Assembly: GCA_025361365.1 (NCBI GenBank)
Contig: JANYAM010000146.1
Location: 1 to 33,261 of the forward strand
Reading direction: 5' to 3'
DNA from: Opitutus sp.
Lineage (GTDB): Bacteria > Verrucomicrobiota > Verrucomicrobiia > Opitutales > Opitutaceae
Length of the DNA: 33,261 bases
In this document: positions 12,049 to 23,561 of the stretch, piece after piece
How the letters are laid out: the number at the start of each line of letters is the position of its first letter
How positions within the stretch are numbered: the first letter of the stretch is position 1
Translations under genes and position numbers: made by a program
The notes under the pieces: model-generated
What the model was told of the DNA's origin: nothing
Seen by the model: the letters and a program-made list of their open reading frames with translations, nothing else
Database searches by the model: none

Positions 12049-14577
12049 ATGGCTTTCCGTTCCTGGCGCCGCGGGCTGCTTGTGCTCGGCGCTATTTTCA
12101 CCGTCGCCGCCCTCCACGCTTTGCCGGGCGACCGGCCCGGACAAACACCGGCCGGCCAGCAGGCCGGAACGGTGCCCTCCCCCGAAGGGATCAAAGGGGA
12201 CCTCCGCAGCTTCGGCACGACCGGCACCGTGCTGCACATCGGCGCGCACCCCGATGACGAGAACACGCAGCTGATCACCTACCTCTCGCTGGGCCGCGGC
12301 TATCGCGCCGCCTACCTGTCGCTCACGCGCGGCGATGGCGGCCAGAACGAACTCGGCCGCGACTTCGACGAGAAACTCGGCGTCGCCCGCACCCAGGAGC
12401 TGCTCGCCGCCCGCCGCTTCGACCATGGCCGCCAGTTTTTTACGCGGGCCATCGATTTCGGTTTTTCCAAGACACCGGAAGAGACCCTGCGCTTCTGGGA
12501 TCGCGACGCCGTGCTCGGCGATGTCGTGCGCATCATCCGGCAATACCGTCCCGATGTCATCGTCACGCGCTTTCCCATCCCCCCTGGCAGCGGCGGCCAC
12601 GGCCACCACACCGCCTCGGCTATCCTCGCCGTCGAGGCCTTCAAGCTCGCCGGAGATCCCAAGGCTTATCCGGAACAGCTCACGCAAGGCCTGACTGTCT
12701 GGCAGCCCAAGCGCGTTGTCTGGAATTCGTTTTCGTTCGGCGGCGCCGGTCCCAACGGACTCAACGGCCCCATCGTGAAAATGGACATCGCGGGCATCGA
12801 CCCGGTGAGCGACGATAGCTTTGGCACCATCGCCAATGAAAGCCGCGGCATGCACAAGACCCAGGGCCTCGGCGGTTTTTCCGGCCGCGCGGCCACTGGT
12901 CCTAACATCCAAAACTTCATGCTGCTGGCTGGCGATCCGGCCACGTCCGACCTCATGGATGGCGTCGACACGACGTGGAACCGTTATCCGGGCGGCGCTG
13001 AAATCGGCGAAGCCGCCGCGGCCGTCCTCGCTGGATTCAAGGCTGACGATCCCGCCGCCTCGGTGCCCGCCCTGCTGGCGCTCCGCCCTAGACTCGCCGC
13101 GCTACCGTCCGATCCGCTCGTCGCCGACAAGCGCGCGCAACTGGACCGGATCTTGCAGGCATGCCTCGGTCTGAAGGTCGAAACCACCATCGCCAACGCC
13201 GAGGTCGTGCCGGGCGAACCGCTCAAACTAACGCTCGCCTTCAGCGTAGCGGCCAAATCCGTTGACGTGCGTTACCTCGAGACGCGCAGCCCGGCGTTGA
13301 AGCTGGCCGCCGGCTCCGCCGGCGAACTGACCGGCGTCCTGCCGCTGACGACCCCGCTCACCCAACCCTACTGGCTGCGCGCCGACGGCGCGGCAGGCAT
13401 TTCCCGCGTCGACGATCCCTCCCTCATCGGCCGGCCGGAAAATCCGCCCGCGATTCCGCTGGAGCATGTCTTCACGGTAAGCGGCCAGACTTTGGTCATC
13501 ACCGATGAACCGGTGCAACTCGTCCATGCGCGGGTCGGCGAGCAATCACGGTTGAGCGTCAAGATCATCCCGCCCGTCTCGCTCGCGCTGAACTCCGAGA
13601 TCTTCTTCGTGCCGCCCGGCACCACGAAACCGGTCAGCGTGGAGGTCACGGCCGCCCGCGCCAACAGCCGCGGCACTCTCCGCCTCGACCTGCCCGCCGG
13701 CTGGTCCGCCGCGCCCGGCCCGCAGGACTTCCACCTGCCCAACGTCGGCGACAAAGCGCGGGTCACCTTTAATGTGACCGCCTCGGCGCAACCGTCCGCC
13801 GGAAAACTCACGGCCATCGCGAAGGTCGACGGCCACGATTTCTCCAACCAGCGCTATGAGGTCCGCTACGATCACATTCCCGTGCAGTTGCTCCAGCCGC
13901 CGGCCCGCGCGCGGCTGGCCAGTTTCGAGTTGGCCACGCGCGGCCTGACCATCGGTTACCTGCCAGGCGCCGGCGACTATGTGGCCGAATGCCTCGAGCA
14001 GATGGGCTATGTCGTTCACCGCCTTACCGGCGCTGACCTGACGCCGGAAAAACTCAAGGGCCTCGACGCCGTCGTCATCGGCGTGCGCGCCTTCAACGAG
14101 CGCACTGACTTGAAGGCCGCCTTCCCCGGCCTGCTCGCCTGGGTCGAGGCCGGCGGCACCGTCATCGCGCAATACAACCGGCCCAACGGCCTGAAGGCCG
14201 ACCAGCTCGGGCCGTATCCGCTCTCGATCGAGGGACCGGCCCCGGCGCTGCGCGTCACCGACGAGACGGCGCCTGTGACGCTCCTCGCGCCCGACCACGC
14301 GGCCGTCAACACGCCGAACAAAATCGCTCCCACGGATTTCAACGGCTGGGTGCAGGAACGTGGTGCGTATTTCCCGAGCAAGTGGGATGAGGAACATTAT
14401 GTCGCCCTGCTCGGCATGAGCGACCCGGGCGAGGCCACGCTCAAGAGCAGCATCCTCGTCGCGAAATACGGGCAGGGTCACTACGTCTACACCGGCATCG
14501 GATTTTTCCGGCAGCTGCCCGCCGGCGTGCCCGGCGCCTACCGCCTGTTCGCCAACCTGCTTTCGCTGAGCAAATGA
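12049..14577 (+). CDS. Exported LmbE/PIG-L family deacetylase with GATase1-like C-terminus
   Basis: An 842-residue protein. Residues 1-25 are a signal peptide, so it acts outside the cytoplasm. The LmbE/PIG-L catalytic domain spans about 55-330, with the zinc motif GAHPDDEN (His67, Asp69, Asp70) and GGHGHHTAS (around His184-His187). The middle part (about 380-610) looks like beta-sandwich domains. The C-terminal 220 residues resemble a class-I glutamine-amidotransferase/ThuA-like fold (GYLPGAGDYVAECLEQMGY, ...VVIGVRAF). PIG-L enzymes remove acetyl groups from N-acetylglucosaminyl compounds or cleave thiol conjugates, so a role on a sugar or thiol conjugate is plausible; the substrate is unknown. 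The stop overlaps the start of the next gene by four bases, the first link in the coupled chain leading to bshA. Confidence 0.85.
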   Translation: MAFRSWRRGLLVLGAIFTVAALHALPGDRPGQTPAGQQAGTVPSPEGIKGDLRSFGTTGTVLHIGAHPDDENTQLITYLSLGRGYRAAYLSLTRGDGGQNELGRDFDEKLGVARTQELLAARRFDHGRQFFTRAIDFGFSKTPEETLRFWDRDAVLGDVVRIIRQYRPDVIVTRFPIPPGSGGHGHHTASAILAVEAFKLAGDPKAYPEQLTQGLTVWQPKRVVWNSFSFGGAGPNGLNGPIVKMDIAGIDPVSDDSFGTIANESRGMHKTQGLGGFSGRAATGPNIQNFMLLAGDPATSDLMDGVDTTWNRYPGGAEIGEAAAAVLAGFKADDPAASVPALLALRPRLAALPSDPLVADKRAQLDRILQACLGLKVETTIANAEVVPGEPLKLTLAFSVAAKSVDVRYLETRSPALKLAAGSAGELTGVLPLTTPLTQPYWLRADGAAGISRVDDPSLIGRPENPPAIPLEHVFTVSGQTLVITDEPVQLVHARVGEQSRLSVKIIPPVSLALNSEIFFVPPGTTKPVSVEVTAARANSRGTLRLDLPAGWSAAPGPQDFHLPNVGDKARVTFNVTASAQPSAGKLTAIAKVDGHDFSNQRYEVRYDHIPVQLLQPPARARLASFELATRGLTIGYLPGAGDYVAECLEQMGYVVHRLTGADLTPEKLKGLDAVVIGVRAFNERTDLKAAFPGLLAWVEAGGTVIAQYNRPNGLKADQLGPYPLSIEGPAPALRVTDETAPVTLLAPDHAAVNTPNKIAPTDFNGWVQERGAYFPSKWDEEHYVALLGMSDPGEATLKSSILVAKYGQGHYVYTGIGFFRQLPAGVPGAYRLFANLLSLSK

Positions 14578-14711
14578 CCACGCCGCCCCCCGACGACGAG
14601 TTTACCGGTCTCCCCGGTTTCCGCTCGTGGCGGGCGGTTTATGTTTTCGTGCTGGGCGTCTTCGTCGTCTGGGTCGGGTTGCTGGCGGTGCTGACGGAGG
14701 TGTATTCGTGA
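14574..14711 (+). CDS. 45-residue single-pass membrane protein, probable symporter partner
   Basis: ATG 14574 to TGA 14709-14711 encodes a 45-residue protein. Its polar N-terminus (MTTPPPDDEFTGLPGFRSW) is followed by one transmembrane helix (about 20-41, AVYVFVLGVFVVWVGLLAVL). It begins within the stop codon of the LmbE/PIG-L gene (ATGA) and ends within the GTG start of the symporter (GTGA). Small one- or two-helix proteins are encoded ahead of several sodium:solute symporters in bacteria (for example YhdT with PanF), and by position this appears to be one, although no named family is recognised. A role as symporter subunit or assembly factor is inferred from coupling. Confidence 0.8.
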   Translation: MTTPPPDDEFTGLPGFRSWRAVYVFVLGVFVVWVGLLAVLTEVYS

Positions 14712-16426
14712 ACGCCCTCGATTACGCGGTCCTGCTCGGCACCATCCTGGCCATCGCCGGCTACGGGATGTGGCGCACACGCAGCCGCCGCAGCCTCGAC
14801 ACCTACCTGCGCGGCGCGCGCGACACCAACTGGTTCACCATCGGCGTGGCCGTGATGGCGACGCAGGCGAGCGCCACTACCTTCCTGTCCACGCCCGGCC
14901 AGGGTTATCAGGACGGAATCGGTTTCATCCAGAATTACTTCGGCGCGCCCCTGGCGATGATCATCATCGCCGCCATCTTCCTGCCGATCTTCCGCCGGCT
15001 GAATGTCTATACGGCCTACGAATACCTCGGCCAGCGCTTCGACCGGAAAACCCGCCTGCTCGGCGCGGGGCTTTTCCTTCTGCAGCGCGGCCTCGCGGCC
15101 GGCATCACCGTCTACGCGCCGGCCATCGTGCTATCCACGGCGATGGGCTGGCCGCTGCAACTCACGATCATCGCGAGCGGGCTGCTCGTGCTGCTCTACA
15201 CGGTGGCCGGCGGCAGCGAGGCCGTGGCCCTTACGCAGAAATACCAGTTCGGCGTAATCATCGCCGGCATGATTGCCGCGTTCGTGGTGCTCGTGACCAA
15301 ACTGCCCCCGGCCCTCACGCTCGGTGATGCTTTCACGGTCGCAGGCGGTTTCGGCAAGCTTAAGGCGGTCGATCCCACGCTCAGCCTCGCCCCGCGCTAC
15401 ACCCTGTGGTCGGGCCTGATCGGCGGCCTGTTCCTGGCCCTGTCGTATTTCGGCGCCGACCAGTCGCAGGTGCAGCGCTACCTCGGCGGCGCGTCGCTCC
15501 GCGAAAGCCGGCTGGGGTTGATGTTCAACGCCATCTTCAAGATCCCCATGCAGCTCTTCATCCTGCTGCTGGGCGCGCTGATCTTTGTCTTCTATCAATT
15601 CGAGCGCCCGCCGGTTTTCTTCAACCAGACGGCGTGGCACGCCGCCGCCCAGACGGCCCCGGGAAAATTCGCGGCGATCGAGTCGGACTACGCCGCCGCC
15701 CAGGGTGACAAGCAGCAGGAGATCGCCCGCTGGCTGACCGCCGAACATGCGGGCGATACCGCGGCGAGCACCGCGGCCCGGACCGCCGCCCGCGACAGCC
15801 AGGCGCGCGCTGAGGCGGTGCGGGTCCGGGCCAAGGCCGCCCTGCGCGAGGCCGATCCGCGCGCGCCGACCACCGATACCGATTACGTTTTCATCCACTT
15901 CATTATCTCGTATCTCCCGCACGGGCTCATCGGGTTGCTCATCACGGTGTTCTTCGCGGCCACCCTGAATTCCAAGGCCGCCGAGCTCAACGCCCTCGCC
16001 TCCGCCACCACCGTGGATCTCTACCGCCATCTCATCGACCCGGCGGCCAATGACACCCGGTGCGTCACCGCCTCGCGCTGGTTCACCGCGCTCTGGGGGC
16101 TGGCCGCCATCGGGTTCGCCCTGAGCATCACGCTTGCGGAAAATCTCATCCAGTTCGCCAACATCATCGCGTCGATCTTTTATCCCGTGCTGCTCGGCCT
16201 GTTCTTCGTCGCGTTTTTCCTCAGGAAAGTCGGCGGCACCGCCGTGTTCTGGGGCGCCCTCGCGGCCCAGGGCGTGACCGTGGCAATCTTCTTTGCCCGC
16301 GGCGCGTCGGCGGACTTTCCCTTCTCCTATCTCTGGGACAACGTCATCGGCTGCGGGGCGTGCATGCTGTTCAGCGTCATGATCCAGGCCGCCCTGCCGC
16401 CGTCCCCCAAACCCGCCACCGCATGA
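14708..16426 (+). CDS. Sodium:solute symporter (SSS family)
   Basis: A 572-residue inner-membrane sodium symporter. Start GTG at 14708 overlaps the preceding stop; the N-terminal helix is VNALDYAVLLGTILAIAGYG. Family hallmarks include TIGVAVMATQASATTFLSTP (sodium-site helix), TAYEYLGQRFD, and YFGADQSQVQRYL near residue 255. A charged, Ala/Arg-rich insert of about 100 residues (around 310-400, EHAGDTAASTAARTAARDSQ) separates the later helices. It resembles the long extramembrane segment of sugar- or sialic-acid-type SSS transporters in Bacteroidota and Verrucomicrobiota. The substrate is not predictable; a sugar, sugar acid or the product of the exported LmbE protein are candidates. The stop overlaps the BshC-like gene by four bases. 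Confidence 0.92.
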   Translation: MNALDYAVLLGTILAIAGYGMWRTRSRRSLDTYLRGARDTNWFTIGVAVMATQASATTFLSTPGQGYQDGIGFIQNYFGAPLAMIIIAAIFLPIFRRLNVYTAYEYLGQRFDRKTRLLGAGLFLLQRGLAAGITVYAPAIVLSTAMGWPLQLTIIASGLLVLLYTVAGGSEAVALTQKYQFGVIIAGMIAAFVVLVTKLPPALTLGDAFTVAGGFGKLKAVDPTLSLAPRYTLWSGLIGGLFLALSYFGADQSQVQRYLGGASLRESRLGLMFNAIFKIPMQLFILLLGALIFVFYQFERPPVFFNQTAWHAAAQTAPGKFAAIESDYAAAQGDKQQEIARWLTAEHAGDTAASTAARTAARDSQARAEAVRVRAKAALREADPRAPTTDTDYVFIHFIISYLPHGLIGLLITVFFAATLNSKAAELNALASATTVDLYRHLIDPAANDTRCVTASRWFTALWGLAAIGFALSITLAENLIQFANIIASIFYPVLLGLFFVAFFLRKVGGTAVFWGALAAQGVTVAIFFARGASADFPFSYLWDNVIGCGACMLFSVMIQAALPPSPKPATA

Positions 16427-17190
16427 GCGCCCCCGTCATCTGTTTTGGCCAGCAACCCTGCGGGTTTTTCCCGCGGCGCTTCCTGCAGGCCAAGTTCGTG
16501 ACCGCCCGCCGCCTCCAGGCGGAGATCGGCGGCGAGATCGTGTTTTTTCTCCACGACAGCGACCACGACTGCCGCGAAACGCAGACCACGCTGCGCCATC
16601 TTAAGACCGGCCAGCCCCAGACCTTCAACTTCACCTTTGCCAACAAGCTCCAGCGGAAATTCTCCCCGCTCTTCCTCAAGCGCATCCCGGCCGACTGGTC
16701 GCCCAACACCGCGCGCCAGCTGCCCAACTTCGTCGCGCCGCGCTGGGTCGACGCCTTCAAGCAGGTCAACGCCACCAACGTGGCCGACTTCTGCCTCGAG
16801 ATGTATCGCGGCATGGGACTGCTCGACGGCATCCGCGTGGTCCGCTCCGGCGACCCGGCCGTCCGCCGCGCGGCGTGTGAGATCACCGATTATTTCGTCG
16901 ACGTGCCGCACGGGGGCGAAATCGTCCGCGCCCGCCTGATCAACGGCGCCCTCAAGCTCCACGAGGGCGGCGATGCCTACACCGACCTGCCGAAGATGGA
17001 CTTCGCCAAGGAGCAGATCAGTCCGACGCGCGATAGCCGGTTGCGCTGGATGCAATCCGTGATTCACTGCACCCACTATATCTGCGGCGCCGGCGAGCAG
17101 GCGTATCTCAACCCGGCCGACGCCCCCGAAATCACCTTTGTCCCACGCGACCCGATCGACCGTTCCGATGAAGCCTACGCCGAAGCCTGA
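16423..17190 (+). CDS. Compact BshC-like putative bacillithiol cysteine-adding enzyme
   Basis: A 255-residue cytosolic protein starting in the symporter stop codon (ATGA). Motifs occur in the order found in BshC, which joins cysteine to glucosaminyl-malate: GQQ (9-11) in CFGQQPCGFFPRRFLQAKFV, like GGQQAGLLTGP; SDHD (46-49), like GEDHD; RSGDPAVRR (141-149), like NSGDPGIKK; GAGEQAYL (222-229), like GPGEINYW. The comparison is with the Bacillus protein from memory. Canonical BshC is about 540 residues with a C-terminal coiled coil; this protein has neither the extended N-terminus, the insertion nor the coiled coil. Because bshB1 and bshA follow immediately, a cysteine-ligase role is a strong inference. 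The alternative is another member of the nucleotidyltransferase-like fold with a different acceptor. Confidence 0.65.
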   Translation: MSAPVICFGQQPCGFFPRRFLQAKFVTARRLQAEIGGEIVFFLHDSDHDCRETQTTLRHLKTGQPQTFNFTFANKLQRKFSPLFLKRIPADWSPNTARQLPNFVAPRWVDAFKQVNATNVADFCLEMYRGMGLLDGIRVVRSGDPAVRRAACEITDYFVDVPHGGEIVRARLINGALKLHEGGDAYTDLPKMDFAKEQISPTRDSRLRWMQSVIHCTHYICGAGEQAYLNPADAPEITFVPRDPIDRSDEAYAEA

Positions 17191-17899
17191 CCTGCCGCCC
17201 CTACTGGCCTTCGGCGCGCACCCCGACGACATCGAGTTCGGCGCCGGTGGAGTGATCGCCAAGGAAACCCGCGCCGGCCGGCCGGTGCATTTCGTGGTTT
17301 GCTCGCGCGGCGAGGCGGGAACGAACGGCACGCCGGCGGTCCGCACTCGCGAAGCGAAGACCGCGGCCAAACTGCTCGGGGCCACGATCGAGTTTCTCGA
17401 GCTCGACGGCGATGCTCACCTTGAGCTCAAGGCGGCGCACGCCCTCGCGCTTGCCGGCATCATCCGCCGCGTGCAACCGGGCATCGTGCTCGCGCCGACC
17501 ACCGAGCCCAACCAGCACCCCGACCACGGCCGACTCGGCCAGCTCGTCCGCGACGCTGTCCGGCTCGCTCGCTACGGCGGCCTGGCCAAGCTGAAGGCTC
17601 GGCCGGCGCACACCATCGGCCAGTTGTTTTTCTATGCGCTCAGCCCCGGCAGCGTGCCGGCGGGCCAGCCGCCGGTCGTGATCGACATTTCCGCGCCCGG
17701 GATCGTCGCCGCCTGGACCAAGGCGATGGAAGCGCACGCTTCGCAAATGCAGACGCGCAACTACGTCGAGCTGCAGCTGGCGCGGGCCCGCGTGCTCGGC
17801 CTCGACGCCGGCGTGGCCTGTGCCCAGGCGCTTTACCCAAACGATCCGCTGCTGTTCGACTCGCTCGCCCCGCTGGCGCGCGGCGCCCGCCGCTTCTGA
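17168..17899 (+). CDS. bshB1: BshB1-like LmbE/PIG-L deacetylase
   Basis: A 243-residue cytosolic zinc deacetylase. BshB1 removes the acetyl group from GlcNAc-malate to give GlcN-malate, the second step of bacillithiol synthesis. The zinc site is LLAFGAHPDDIEFGAGGVIA (HPDD at 18-21) and HPDHGRL (117-120). The features PAHTIGQLFFYALSP, VVIDIS and LARARVLGLDAGVACAQALY follow in the order of BshB1. The start is ATG 17168, overlapping the upstream gene by 23 bases; a start at 17138 would add ten residues outside the family. The size and adjacency to bshA favour BshB1 over BshB2 or a general LmbE enzyme. It is the cytosolic counterpart to the exported PIG-L protein at the front of the same chain. 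Confidence 0.85.
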   Translation: MKPTPKPDLPPLLAFGAHPDDIEFGAGGVIAKETRAGRPVHFVVCSRGEAGTNGTPAVRTREAKTAAKLLGATIEFLELDGDAHLELKAAHALALAGIIRRVQPGIVLAPTTEPNQHPDHGRLGQLVRDAVRLARYGGLAKLKARPAHTIGQLFFYALSPGSVPAGQPPVVIDISAPGIVAAWTKAMEAHASQMQTRNYVELQLARARVLGLDAGVACAQALYPNDPLLFDSLAPLARGARRF

Positions 17900-17900
17900 C

Positions 17901-19037
17901 ATGGCCACCGCCCGTCCCCTCAAGATCGGCATCACCTGCTACCCGTCGGTCGGCGGCAGCGGCATCCTGGCGTCGGAGCTGGGCGAGGAACTGGCCCAGC
18001 GCGGCCACGAAATCCATTTCATCAGCTACGAGGCGCCGTTCCGCATGCCGGCCGGCCCGAACGTGTTCTTCCATCCGGTGCAGGTGAACAGCTACGACTT
18101 GTTCAAGTATCCCGACTACACCCTGCCGCTCTCGGTGAAGATGGCCGAGGTCAGCCGCGCGCACCGGCTCGACGTGTTGCACGTCCACTACGCCGTGCCG
18201 CACGCGACCGCCGCCATCCTCGCCCGCGCCATGCTGCACGAGGAGCACCGCCTGCGCATCATCACGACACTGCACGGCACCGACACCACGCTGCTCGGCC
18301 GGGATCCCGGCTACGGCCCCGCCATCCGACACGCCCTCGAGCACTCCGACGCCATCACCACCGTCTCCGAGTTCATGCGGGGCGAAACCGTCCGCCTGCT
18401 CGGCGTCCAGCGCCCGATCGAGGTCATCCACAATTTCTTCGCGCCCCACCCGCCGGGGCGCTCCCGCGCCGAGGTGCGCCGCGAACTCGGTCTGGCGGAT
18501 GGCGAAGCACTCCTGCTGCACATCTCGAACCTGCGTCCGCTGAAGCGCCTCGATCTGTTGCTGCAGACCGTCGCGCAACTTCCCGCAAACACCGCCTTCA
18601 AGCTCGTCGTGCTGGCGGGCGGCGACCCGGCGCCGCTCCTGGCCGAAGCCGCCCGGCTCGGCCTGGCCGGCCGCCTCCTCGTGCGCGAGCGCGTGAGCGA
18701 CGTGGAGGACTTCCTGCAGGCGGCCGACGCCGGCCTGTTCACCTCCGAGACGGAAAGCTTCTGCCTCAGCATCCTGGAGTTGATGAGCTTTGGTTGTCCC
18801 AGCGCCTCGTTTGCCGTCGGCGGGATTCCGGAGGTCACGCGGTCCGGCGATACCGGCCTGCTGGTCCCGTTCGGCGACACCGCCGCGCTGGCGCAGGCCG
18901 TGGGCACGCTGCTCACTGATCCCGTCCGCCGCGCCGCGCTCGGCCGCGCCGCGCAGCAGCGCGCCGGGGAGCATTTTTCCGCCGCGGTCGTCGTCCCGCG
19001 CTACGAGGCGCTCTACCGCCGCGTCTGCGGAATTTAG
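17901..19037 (+). CDS. bshA: N-acetyl-alpha-D-glucosaminyl L-malate synthase BshA
   Basis: A 378-residue GT4 glycosyltransferase that transfers GlcNAc from UDP-GlcNAc to L-malate, the first step of bacillithiol synthesis, in the cytosol. The diagnostic opening LKIGITCYPSVGGSGILASE is nearly as in Bacillus BshA. It is followed by HYAVPHATAA, TTLHGTDTTLLG (about 122-133), the HNFF segment, HISNLRPLKR (about 207-216) and the EX7E donor-site motif ESFCLSILE (285-293). Length equals the family's usual 375-385. It begins one base after the bshB1 stop, so the two are surely co-transcribed. Of all genes in this chain its assignment is the firmest, and it anchors the reading of the neighbours as a bacillithiol pathway. 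Confidence 0.93.
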   Translation: MATARPLKIGITCYPSVGGSGILASELGEELAQRGHEIHFISYEAPFRMPAGPNVFFHPVQVNSYDLFKYPDYTLPLSVKMAEVSRAHRLDVLHVHYAVPHATAAILARAMLHEEHRLRIITTLHGTDTTLLGRDPGYGPAIRHALEHSDAITTVSEFMRGETVRLLGVQRPIEVIHNFFAPHPPGRSRAEVRRELGLADGEALLLHISNLRPLKRLDLLLQTVAQLPANTAFKLVVLAGGDPAPLLAEAARLGLAGRLLVRERVSDVEDFLQAADAGLFTSETESFCLSILELMSFGCPSASFAVGGIPEVTRSGDTGLLVPFGDTAALAQAVGTLLTDPVRRAALGRAAQQRAGEHFSAAVVVPRYEALYRRVCGI

Positions 19038-19508: not shown

Positions 19509-19645
19509 GGACGCTGACCGGCTGGAAACTACGCTGAGAAAGAAACTTCCCATTGCTCCCGCCGTCACAACGCTCTTCCCTGAACCTCCCGATTCCGCCG
19601 GCGCCGGCCACGCCCTCCTCTCACCTGGTTCCACCCGCTCCCGTC

Positions 19646-21850
19646 ATGTCCCAATTCCGTTCGCGTCTCCTTGCCTTCCTGTCCGTGGTGCTGTTCGCCG
19701 CCGGGCCCGGCCCCGCCCAGCAGCCGACCCCCGCGATCTCGCCGGCCCCCGCCCCAACCGGGCGCACCGCCGAGGCCACGGTCGGACCGATCAAGTTCGG
19801 CGACATCACCGTCGATGCCGCCCTGGATATGCTTGAGCGTTGGTCGGGCCGCTCCGTGCTGCGCCCCGCCGGCCTGCCCGCGACCTCGCTCAGTTTCTCG
19901 CTCAATCAAAAGGTCACCCGGGACGAAGCCCGCCTGGCGCTGGAGACCCTGCTGACCATGAACGGCATTGGTGTCAGCCCGCTCGGCGAGAAATTTCTCA
20001 AGGTCACGCCGCTCAACACCGCCCGCACCGAGGCGCCCGACTTCATCGAGGGCTCCACCCTGGGCCTGACGCCCAGCGGACACCTCGCCCAGAAAGTCTT
20101 CACCTTGAAATTTCTCCGCGTCGGCGAATTCATGCCGCAGATGGCCAGCCTCCTCAACGCCACCGCGGCCAGCCCGCCGCTGCTCTTCGAGAAGGCCAAC
20201 GCCGCGCTCATCACCGACACCGTCAGCAACCTCCAGCGCATCGAGACACTCCTCAGTCAGCTCGACCAGCCGTCGCTCGTCGGCATCACGCCGAAATTCT
20301 ACAAGGTCCAGAACACCACCGCCAGTGAGCTCGTGGCCCGGCTCCAGAGCATCCTCACCGGCAACAGCGCCACCTCGCTCGGCACCGGCACGTCGTTCCA
20401 GGCCGATGACCGCACCAACCAGGTCATCCTGCTCGGCGATCCGCGGCAGCAGGCGTTCTTCGACGAGCTGATCGCGAAGCTCGACACGGCCGGCGAGTCC
20501 AGCACGCGGCAGGAGGTCATCCCGCTCAAGCACGCCTCCGCGACCGACATGGCCACCGTTCTCAGCACGCTGATCTCGGGCCAGAACGCCGCGGCGCGCA
20601 CCGCGAACCAGGCCAGCCAGAACCAGGCCAACGCCCGCTACGCCGCCAACACCCTCGCCAATTTGGGCAATCGCAATGGCACCGGGGGCAACGGCGTGGC
20701 CGCCAATGGCAACCCCAATGTGCCCGGCGGCAACAACGCGGCGAACAATCCCCAGGCCGCGGCTGCGCAGGCCGCCGCCGCCCAGCGGGCCCAGATCACT
20801 TCCATCTCCGGCCCCAACGGCACTTTCGTTTACCCGGGTGGCGCCCTCGGCTCCGCCGGCAACCCGGCCGCGCCGCAGCAGTTCAGCACCATCCTCACCG
20901 TCGTGGCCGACGACCGCAGCAATTCCCTCGTCGTGTCCGGCACCGTGGACGACCTGCGACTCATCAAGGACATCATCGCGCAGCTCGACGTGCTGCTCGC
21001 GCAGGTCCGCATCGAGGTCGTCATTGCCGAGGTCACGCTGACTGACGCCGCCACCACCGGCATCGACGCCCTCGGCCTCGTGATTTCCGGCAACAAGCTG
21101 GTTGCCTTCAGCGGCACGGCCGCCGGCATCGCCGTCAGCGGCGCGCCCAACGCCACCACCGGTGCGGCCACGCCGTTCGCAACGCTCTACAACGCCACCA
21201 CTGGCGTCCGCGACCTGGCCGCGACGCTCAACCTCAGCCTGACGCCGCGCAAGTCCAACACCAACATCCTCTCCGTCCCCAACATTGTCACGAGCCACAA
21301 CAAGGAGGCCACCCTCTTCGTCGGCGAGTCGCGCCCGGTCATCACCAGCTACCAGAACACCGGCAACAACACCGGCAACACCGGCGCGGGCTATACTAGC
21401 AACGTCACCTACAAGGACATCGGCATCAACCTCACCGTGAAGCCCCTCATCGGCAACGACGGCTCCGTGCAGCTCGACATCAAGCAGGAGGTGAATGACA
21501 TCCTCGGCAACGTCACCATCGACGGCAACTCGCAGCCCGTCATCGGCAGCCGGACCAACAACACCTTTGTGAGCGTCAAGAGCGGCGACATCATCGTCCT
21601 CGGCGGCCTGCAGCGCAAATCCCAGAGCAAATCCACCAGCCGCCTCGCTGGCATCCCGATCCTCGGCGACCTGCTCGGCAAGCGCACCCGCGAGGACACC
21701 CGCACCGACCTCGTCTTCTTCCTGCGGCCCTACGTGCTGACCAACAGCGAGGCCGACAACGCGGAGGCCATGGAGCGGCTCAAGCACAGCCCGCAGCGCA
21801 GCGACGTGCAGTCGACCCTCAAGTCCGGCGTGCTCCCGGCCAAGCCCTGA
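19646..21850 (+). CDS. gspD: Type II secretion system secretin GspD
   Basis: A 734-residue outer-membrane secretin, forming the exit channel of the type II secretion system. Residues 1-25 are a signal peptide (MSQFRSRLLAFLSVVLFAAG). N0/N1-type repeats follow (VFTLKFLRVGEFMPQMASLL and ITPKFYKVQNTTASELVARL). A 90-residue Asn/Gln/Ala/Gly-rich linker (around 315-405) precedes a further N-domain, VADDRSNSLVVSGT. The secretin core ends with the signature VLGGLQRKSQSKSTSRLAGI (around 655-674). ATG 19646 was chosen over an in-frame start at 19553, which lacks a proper signal peptide. The gene is followed ten bases later by gspE. No S-domain/pilotin motif was recognised at the C-terminus. Confidence 0.93.
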   Translation: MSQFRSRLLAFLSVVLFAAGPGPAQQPTPAISPAPAPTGRTAEATVGPIKFGDITVDAALDMLERWSGRSVLRPAGLPATSLSFSLNQKVTRDEARLALETLLTMNGIGVSPLGEKFLKVTPLNTARTEAPDFIEGSTLGLTPSGHLAQKVFTLKFLRVGEFMPQMASLLNATAASPPLLFEKANAALITDTVSNLQRIETLLSQLDQPSLVGITPKFYKVQNTTASELVARLQSILTGNSATSLGTGTSFQADDRTNQVILLGDPRQQAFFDELIAKLDTAGESSTRQEVIPLKHASATDMATVLSTLISGQNAAARTANQASQNQANARYAANTLANLGNRNGTGGNGVAANGNPNVPGGNNAANNPQAAAAQAAAAQRAQITSISGPNGTFVYPGGALGSAGNPAAPQQFSTILTVVADDRSNSLVVSGTVDDLRLIKDIIAQLDVLLAQVRIEVVIAEVTLTDAATTGIDALGLVISGNKLVAFSGTAAGIAVSGAPNATTGAATPFATLYNATTGVRDLAATLNLSLTPRKSNTNILSVPNIVTSHNKEATLFVGESRPVITSYQNTGNNTGNTGAGYTSNVTYKDIGINLTVKPLIGNDGSVQLDIKQEVNDILGNVTIDGNSQPVIGSRTNNTFVSVKSGDIIVLGGLQRKSQSKSTSRLAGIPILGDLLGKRTREDTRTDLVFFLRPYVLTNSEADNAEAMERLKHSPQRSDVQSTLKSGVLPAKP

Positions 21851-21860
21851 TCCGCCCGCG

Positions 21861-23561
21861 ATGATCGACGACCATCTGCCCGCCGCGCTGGCCGGCCGCC
21901 TGTCCGAAGCCGCGCAAAAATCCCTGCAGGAAAGCGTGCGCGAAAAACGCCTCGCCCTCCTCGCCGCGGGCCTCGGCCTCGGCGAAACCGGCACGCTCGA
22001 CGCCCTCGCCCGCGCCACCGGTCTGCCCGTGCTCGAGGTCCCGCAGGTCGACCCGGCCGCCCTCTCCGCCCTCCCCGCCCGCCTGGCCCACGAATACCAG
22101 ATCGTCCCGGTGCTCACCGGCGATCAGCCCGAAGAAACCTCAGGTCTCAGCACAGCGCCCCTGGCGCTGGCCACGGCCTGGCCGCCCAACGCGGACATCG
22201 CGGACTGGATCGCCACCTTCACGCCGCGCCCGCTCGTGTGGCATCTCGCCCCGGCCGACCGCGTGCAGGAACTCATCAATGCGAACTACGGCGTCGGCTC
22301 CGGCAGCCTTGACGACGCCGACGAGTCCGGACTCGCCCCCGCCACCACCGGGGCCGAGCTCGAGGCTGACGCCGACGCGGCGGTCGTCCGCTTCGTCACC
22401 GAGGTCATCTCGCAGGCCGTCACCGAAAACGCGACCGACATCCATTTCGAGCCGCAGGAGGGCGAGCTCACTATCCGCTACCGCGTCGACGGCATCCTCA
22501 TCCCCGTGCCGCTGCCGGAAAACCTGCTGCGGTTTCAGGACGCCATCATCTCCCGCCTGAAGATCATGGCGCGCATGAACATTTCGGAAAAGCGCCTGCC
22601 GCAGGACGGGCGCATCGACTTCCGTGCCGGGGGCGCCGCGCTCGACATCCGCGTCTCCACCATCCCGACCATCTACGCCGAGAGCGTGAGCCTCCGCCTG
22701 CTCAACCAGCGCAAGATGGCCTACACGATGGACAGCATCGGCCTTACGCCCGCCGAGCAGGCGCAGATCGTCAAGGTCCTCGACTACCCGCACGGCATCA
22801 TCCTCGTCACGGGCCCGACCGGCTCCGGCAAGTCCACCTCGCTCAACGCCTTTCTCCGCAAGATCAATTCCTCCGAGCTGCGCATCGTCACCATCGAGGA
22901 CCCGATCGAATACGAGGTCCCCGGCGCCAACCAGATGCAGACCCACGCCGAGATCGGCCTGACCTTCGCGAGCGCGCTCCGCCACGTGCTGCGGCAGGAC
23001 CCCGACGTCATCATGGTCGGCGAAATCCGCGACCTCGATACTGCCGAGATTGCCATCCGCGCCTCACTCACGGGCCACCTCGTTTTCTCCACGCTCCACA
23101 CCAACGATGCCCCCGGCGCCCTCACCCGCCTCACGGACATGGGCGTCGAGCCCTTCCTCGTCGCCTCCGCCGTCGAGCTCGTCATCGCCCAGCGCCTGGT
23201 GCGCCGGCTTTGCCCTGACTGCGCGAGAAAGCAGCCGGTCGACCAAGCTGCACTGCGCGCCACGCTGGAGTCCATGCAGCTCGACCCCGCCGAGGCCGCC
23301 GGCGTCACCGCGCTGGCCGAGCCGGTCGGCTGCCGGAGCTGCCGGCAGACCGGGTTCCGCGGCCGCATCGGCCTGTTTGAAATTTTGCAGCCCAAGCCGC
23401 TGCACGACCTCATCGTCCGGCGCGAGTCCAGCAAGGCGCTCGGCACGCTGGCCCGGGCGCACGGCATGCGCACGCTGCAGCAATCCGGCTGGGAACGCGT
23501 GAAATCCGGCCACACCTCGCTCCAGGAACTGCTGCGCACCATCAGCACCAGCGGGGAGTGA
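21861..23561 (+). CDS. gspE: Type II secretion ATPase GspE
   Basis: A 566-residue cytoplasmic hexameric ATPase that powers pseudopilus assembly. The N1E/N2E-type domain covers about 1-170. The catalytic core carries DIHFEPQEGELTIRYRVDG, Walker A GPTGSGKST (318-326), the Asp box TIEDPIEYEV, Walker B DVIMVGEIRD (382-391) and the His box LHTNDAPGALTR. The zinc-binding tetracysteine CPDC...CRSC lies near 450-495. Every expected element of the GspE/PilB family is present. The start is ATG 21861, ten bases after gspD. In the absence of a PilB-type extended N-terminus, and with gspG-M nearby, this is the type II rather than the type IV pilus ATPase. Confidence 0.95.
   Translation: MIDDHLPAALAGRLSEAAQKSLQESVREKRLALLAAGLGLGETGTLDALARATGLPVLEVPQVDPAALSALPARLAHEYQIVPVLTGDQPEETSGLSTAPLALATAWPPNADIADWIATFTPRPLVWHLAPADRVQELINANYGVGSGSLDDADESGLAPATTGAELEADADAAVVRFVTEVISQAVTENATDIHFEPQEGELTIRYRVDGILIPVPLPENLLRFQDAIISRLKIMARMNISEKRLPQDGRIDFRAGGAALDIRVSTIPTIYAESVSLRLLNQRKMAYTMDSIGLTPAEQAQIVKVLDYPHGIILVTGPTGSGKSTSLNAFLRKINSSELRIVTIEDPIEYEVPGANQMQTHAEIGLTFASALRHVLRQDPDVIMVGEIRDLDTAEIAIRASLTGHLVFSTLHTNDAPGALTRLTDMGVEPFLVASAVELVIAQRLVRRLCPDCARKQPVDQAALRATLESMQLDPAEAAGVTALAEPVGCRSCRQTGFRGRIGLFEILQPKPLHDLIVRRESSKALGTLARAHGMRTLQQSGWERVKSGHTSLQELLRTISTSGE

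Follow-up and report, generated by a model that had tools for sequence, protein, structure and literature searches.

The window analysed here, the whole 33,261-nucleotide stretch of contig JANYAM010000146.1 from the Opitutus sp. assembly GCA_025361365.1, contains an open reading frame, termed X, that codes for 255 residues plus a stop, and it raises the question of whether so small a protein can do the work of BshC, the enzyme that accompanies BshA and BshB in the bacillithiol gene set. X and its four motif islands are placed as follows.

16423–17190, forward strand: X, candidate compact BshC-like ligase of 255 residues (from its translation, AlphaFold model, match to 4wbd and alignment A1)
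16447–16455, forward strand: codons of G9-Q10-Q11 of X, at the end of strand 5–10, equivalent to the invariant G89-Q90-Q91 of BshC
16561–16569, forward strand: codons of D47-H48-D49 of X, after strand 38–43, equivalent to the invariant D133-H134-D135 of BshC
16846–16857, forward strand: codons of S142-G-D-P145 of X, after strand 137–141, aligning on the SGDP of Bacillus BshC
17086–17106, forward strand: codons of G222-A-G-E225..Y228 of X, after strand 218–221

The preliminary description of this DNA had claimed that all four islands of BshC occur in the right order within about half the length of the Bacillus protein, and both points are borne out: GQQ is found at residues 9–11, DHD at 47–49, SGDP at 142–145 and GAGE..Y at 222–228, and the 255 residues of X compare with 521–554 in the five aligned BshC sequences that form the comparison set. 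G222, E225 and Y228 correspond to the invariant G350, E353 and Y356 of BshC. Within the X family, G9-Q10-Q11 and S142 are invariant, and D144 is conserved in at least 90% of members.

The AlphaFold model of X (mean pLDDT 95.8, pTM 0.92) shows the predicted fold of BshC. In a Foldseek search, B. subtilis BshC (4wbd) is the sole PDB match at E ≤ 0.001 (E 2.5e-10). The Foldseek superposition is loose (TM-score of 0.64 by query length, rmsd of 6.6), and VIA-align, which served as a second look at the Foldseek matches, brings 239 of the 255 residues onto the 4wbd chain range 82–512 (Z 20.3, rmsd 2.7). An unrelated fold is thus not what the prediction returns. The second row of the VIA alignment, with 208 residues aligned at Z 14.4, is 1irx, a class I lysyl-tRNA synthetase, followed lower down by the cysteinyl-tRNA synthetase (CysRS) 8qhp (Z 8.5) and MshC 8hfn (Z 7.6), an order which suggests that BshC-type ligases may stand nearer to class I lysyl-tRNA synthetase than to the CysRS and MshC group. 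A model of a Verrucomicrobiota BshC, that of locus L142, built from a two-row alignment, reached a pLDDT of only 35.8 and was left out as a structural baseline. In the X model, islands 9–11, 47–49, 142–145 and 222–225 lie at or after the ends of strands 5–10, 38–43, 137–141 and 218–221, respectively. Rossmann enzymes usually have their active site at the C-terminal ends of the strands, and X would follow this plan: a Rossmann core of the class I aminoacyl-tRNA-synthetase type, interrupted by inserts, with one island at the C-terminal end of each of four strands. D47, H48, D49, R206 and E225 belong to the predicted active site.

Relatives of X are matched in 28 of 57 related genomes, the host included (G052 by a 38-residue piece only), and 246 of 287 pattern-matching stretches in genome contigs are relatives of X, as confirmed by tblastn. 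Among the best 80 of these 246, 79 are titled Verrucomicrobiota and one (L107) Cyanobacteria. In this last genome, SZAS-4, a contig of 418 kb bears the complete cluster, which may reflect horizontal transfer or a misbinned contig; PF10079 was not found in it. A plasmid search with X gave two matches, both at E 8. Alignment A1 comprises window X and 52 relatives sharing 57–83% identity with it, its 53 rows being those of 117 matched loci with at least 245 residues, an ATG start and less than 85% identity to those already kept. It contains 59 invariant columns, and judged from this conservation the X reading frame is a real conserved family and not a chance one. GQQ, DHD, G222, E225 and Y228 are still invariant when more divergent members are brought into an alignment of 20 rows. 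One gene of the class sample described below (G023) shows a TGA in the part of its profile match that extends beyond the gene's own stop. In MshC and CysRS, a zinc site binds the cysteine thiol. With a site of this kind considered for X, C124, C216, H218, H44 and H48 are invariant over the 53 rows, and C216 precedes strand 218–221, opposite the strand end that carries the islands, going by sequence positions in the predicted model.

The relationship with BshC is faint at the level of single sequences. The X protein of the window matches no Pfam or NCBIfam model at E ≤ 1, PF10079 and TIGR03998 included, and when the protein or its profile is searched against PDB sequences, the best E is 0.33 and no BshC is among the matches. 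When the 53 members of A1 are compared with NCBIfam at the same threshold, TIGR03998 BshC is the family matched by most of them (4 of 53, best 2.3e-4), and in Pfam PF10079 has the best E-value (7.7e-5, in 1 of 53); DUF6980 is matched by three (best 0.0088). Ten divergent members scanned singly yield three matches to PF10079 (7.7e-5, 8.9e-5 and 0.12), of which the second, in L146, covers residues 21–153, and two to TIGR03998 (2.3e-4 and 7e-4). None of the relatives scanned reaches the BshC cut-offs, the best, L024, scoring 22.7 of 27 bits for PF10079 and 20.2 of 265.8 bits for TIGR03998. Profile comparison by hhalign gives a probability of 31–45%, at low diversity (Neff 1.9). Because the default local run aligned the last island alone (probability 15.7%), it was repeated with other settings and with shuffle controls. 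Scores of 36.0 (local) and 27.4 (global) exceed those of all 300 column shuffles (maxima of 25.9 and 11.8), and the reversed control of the global alignment scores 3.2. The global alignment sets all four islands of X on their BshC counterparts, and of 34 aligned columns without variation among the five BshC sequences, 13 hold the same residue in X, where it is likewise invariant: G9, Q10, Q11, K24, D47, H48, D49, E52, R206, Q211, G222, E225 and Y228. Homology to BshC is supported by the relatives of X and by the family profile, rather than by the window protein on its own.

The same alignments indicate which parts of BshC are missing. X begins at BshC residue 81, so that the first 80 residues are lacking; a gap of ~37 BshC residues follows SGDP; and of the 539 BshC residues, the local alignment reaches 387 and the global one 401. 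The absence of the N-terminus, of an internal insertion and of the C-terminal coiled coil, all noted in the preliminary description, is borne out by the sequence alignment, the coiled coil being placed in the part beyond residue 387–401 from the five-sequence BshC alignment. Passages of a 2015 review describe this coiled coil and its role in dimerization (PMC4360819). Since the VIA alignment reaches residue 512 of 4wbd, the last residues of X may replace the BshC segment that lies beyond the coiled coil, as a stand-in for it in the modelled structure.

The genes around X bear on its function.

12049–14577, forward strand: PIG-L plus NPCBM-associated protein of 842 residues (PF02585 over its cut-off, NPCBM_assoc below)
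14627–16426, forward strand: sodium:solute symporter reading frame (PF00474 and TIGR00813 over their cut-offs)
17168–17899, forward strand: bshB-like PIG-L deacetylase (TIGR04001 at 133 bits, Pfam PIG-L), its first 23 nt shared with the end of X
17901–19037, forward strand: bshA, N-acetyl-glucosaminyl-malate synthase (TIGR03999 at 389.6 bits, cut-off 273.7)

The symporter of the SSF family, X, the bshB-like deacetylase and bshA follow one another as a tight operon. The symporter frame overlaps X by 4 nt (ATGA), and its true start may be further in. BshB1 (TIGR04001) is the best family of the window deacetylase, at a score under the cut-off of 182.5 bits. The BshC claim had been made without gene context, and the adjacent bshB-like gene and bshA strengthen it. 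The 842-residue protein has, by reading, a signal-peptide-like N-terminus and a weak match to TIGR03446 Mca, the mycothiol S-conjugate amidase (5.5e-9); thiol conjugates that have been exported may, speculatively, be its substrates. After bshA, the window has secretin and ATPase genes resembling those of type II secretion or type IV pili (19553–23561); a secretin match near X was seen in one of the best 80 loci (L035), with flanks of at most 6 kb.

This arrangement is conserved. Neighbours were counted in the best 80 of the 246 relative loci, each time over those with enough flank. A bshB-like gene lies within 400 nt downstream of X in all 78 testable loci, and 67 of 71 have bshA no more than 1.7 kb away; a symporter is found at most 400 nt upstream in 67 of 74, and beyond it the gene for the 842-residue PIG-L/NPCBM protein is present in 53 of 59. 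In the four loci where bshA is not beside X (L046, L048, L049 and L081), that of L046 has recA after the bshB-like gene. In four genomes (G109, G112, G147 and G061) X stands directly before bshA, the coordinates leaving no room for bshB between them.

The distribution of X across genomes follows that of BshA. BshA was counted with the curated TIGR03999 cut-off only, as at E ≤ 0.001 this model matches 188 of 188 genomes by picking up other glycosyltransferases. In a class sample of 188 genomes, 23 have BshA over the cut-off and X occurs in 23, the two genome sets being identical (in G130, X is split across two contigs), and BshC (PF10079) is found in none of the 188. Seven of the nine positive families hold both states, and in each X and BshA are present or absent together. 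In a phylum sample of 288 genomes, BshA is over the cut-off in 19 and X is found in 17, all within the BshA genomes; canonical BshC is found in two, which are exactly the BshA genomes that do not have X. The samples overlap, and combined they give 29 BshA genomes, 27 with X and two with BshC, none with both and none with neither; related genomes within these counts are not independent samples. In the two BshC genomes (G262 and G315), BshC, a PIG-L reading frame and BshA share a contig and a strand and follow in this order, within about 1.7 kb, which matches the order X, bshB, bshA. The PIG-L frame of L142 scores 212 bits, over the BshB1 cut-off. Both L141 and L142 (family f81) have a canonical BshC with a PIG-L frame just downstream and a similar reading frame just upstream of BshC; that of L141 matches methyltransferase families below their cut-offs and might be an NmbA-like enzyme. 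In the host genome, which is 99.72% complete, no canonical BshC (PF10079) occurs elsewhere.

Taken with the fold, these patterns, among which the distribution weighs most, make it likely that X is a minimal BshC-type ligase which takes over the BshC step in Verrucomicrobiae, most likely adding cysteine. X is not BshC by model definition, as it falls short of the cut-offs and of the length, yet very probably works like BshC, and the final reaction in making a protective thiol is probably its task. In the proposed pathway, BshA would join UDP-GlcNAc and malate, BshB would take off the acetyl group, and X would link the amine thus freed on glucosaminyl-malate to an amino acid, most probably cysteine, the product being bacillithiol or a close relative. 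We infer that X would use ATP, pass through an aminoacyl-adenylate, accept cysteine and yield bacillithiol. The preliminary description had left two options, a minimal core of the cysteine-adding enzyme or a branch of the fold with another substrate. The former is favoured because X replaces BshC one for one in BshA genomes, while the choice of amino acid stays at the level of inference.

The second option is a compact, separate branch of BshC-fold ligases in Verrucomicrobiae that would act at the same step with an amino acid or acceptor unlike that of Bacillus and would yield a bacillithiol-like thiol yet to be described, recycled by a system of its own. YpdA and bacilliredoxin were looked for as separate backing for bacillithiol as the product. 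YpdA (TIGR04018), which reduces bacillithiol disulfide, is over its cut-off in none of the 188 class genomes, though 23 have BshA, and is found in all three control genomes carrying BshC. YpdA-like matches at E ≤ 1e-30 in six of the 188 (three with X) fall below the cut-off in frames of 765–775 residues and were not counted. Bacilliredoxin (PF06491) is likewise found in none of the 188, and the same family misses two of the three BshC control genomes. Six of six deacetylases scored beside X lie under the BshB1 cut-off of 182.5 bits, at 114–144 bits, four of them being tblastn stretches that are slightly short. In view of these shortfalls, a thiol unlike that of Bacillus is possible, as is another route of recycling it. 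Consistent with a distinct product, X also has a family-specific conserved block, P201-x-R-D-x-R-L-x-W-M-Q...C216-x-H-Y, which is mostly not common to BshC, and the conserved cluster includes the symporter and the signal-like PIG-L protein. Against this, BshA passes its curated cut-off, canonical BshC stands in for X one for one in the same gene order and the same phylum, and reductases could presumably be replaced without any change of thiol. We regard an undescribed thiol as unlikely.

It is very improbable that X is a mere remnant of BshC, without catalysis or with a regulatory role, while an unrelated gene at another site codes for the true cysteine ligase. The halved length of X and the lack of any HMM match for the window protein would fit such a remnant, but 59 columns are invariant over 53 rows, 13 of them BshC invariants, internal stops are found in none of the 30 matches listed in the related-genome search, the genome sets of X and BshA coincide in the class sample, and the host has a single gene of the CysRS/MshC type (PF01406, E ≤ 1e-10), on contig C109, away from X. 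That X is a distant fragment of a class I aminoacyl-tRNA synthetase, nearest to class I lysyl-tRNA synthetase and with a role outside bacillithiol, is hardly credible: 1irx is indeed the second structural match, but BshC is clearly higher (Z 20.3) and the sole significant Foldseek match, X matches no tRNA-synthetase family of Pfam or NCBIfam at E ≤ 1 and has no HxGH motif in its sequence, and it is tied to bshA and bshB.

With X read as a minimal BshC-type ligase, part of the Verrucomicrobia gain a complete three-enzyme bacillithiol gene set. According to passages of Hiras et al. (2018; PMC6282198), no low-molecular-weight thiol had been documented or predicted for Verrucomicrobia. The criteria given in passages of that survey were 30% identity, E 1e-20 and a length similar to full BshC, and those given for BshC in passages of a 2025 survey of NmbA were similar length and more than 80% coverage (PMC12719100); as far as these passages go, the demand for the length or coverage of full BshC suggests why the X gene set was missed. 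A literature search, with subscription papers and preprints outside its scope, did not find bacillithiol and Opitut together, nor a report pairing bacillithiol with an absent BshC, and the X protein is not described in those passages of papers that name both bacillithiol and Verrucomicrobi. Passages of the 2015 review state that BshC activity had never been demonstrated in vitro and that its mechanism was unknown, and they report a second pocket for ADP in 4WBD (PMC4360819). With a natural version of only 255 residues that has no coiled coil, the indispensable parts of the enzyme would become clear, and assays may be simpler.

Among known systems, BshC (YllA; PF10079/TIGR03998; 4WBD) is the closest to X. 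Both have a Rossmann core with inserts, as predicted for X, the four islands in order and 13 common invariants, both stand with BshA and BshB in clusters of identical gene order, and in the samples searched they never occur together in one genome. They differ in that BshC alone has the ~80 extra N-terminal residues, the internal stretch of ~37 residues and the C-terminal coiled-coil region, whereas X alone has its own conserved block around R203–Y219 and falls below all HMM cut-offs. MshC, the cysteine ligase of mycothiol and a paralogue of CysRS, takes the analogous step in a parallel thiol pathway; it shares a class I synthetase-like fold with X, but at Z 7.6 (8hfn) the match is much weaker than that of BshC, and X has no match to PF01406 (CysRS/MshC) in Pfam at E ≤ 1. 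Class I lysyl-tRNA synthetase (1irx) resembles X in fold over 208 residues, yet differs from it in having no sequence match, in the HxGH motif that X lacks and in its gene context.
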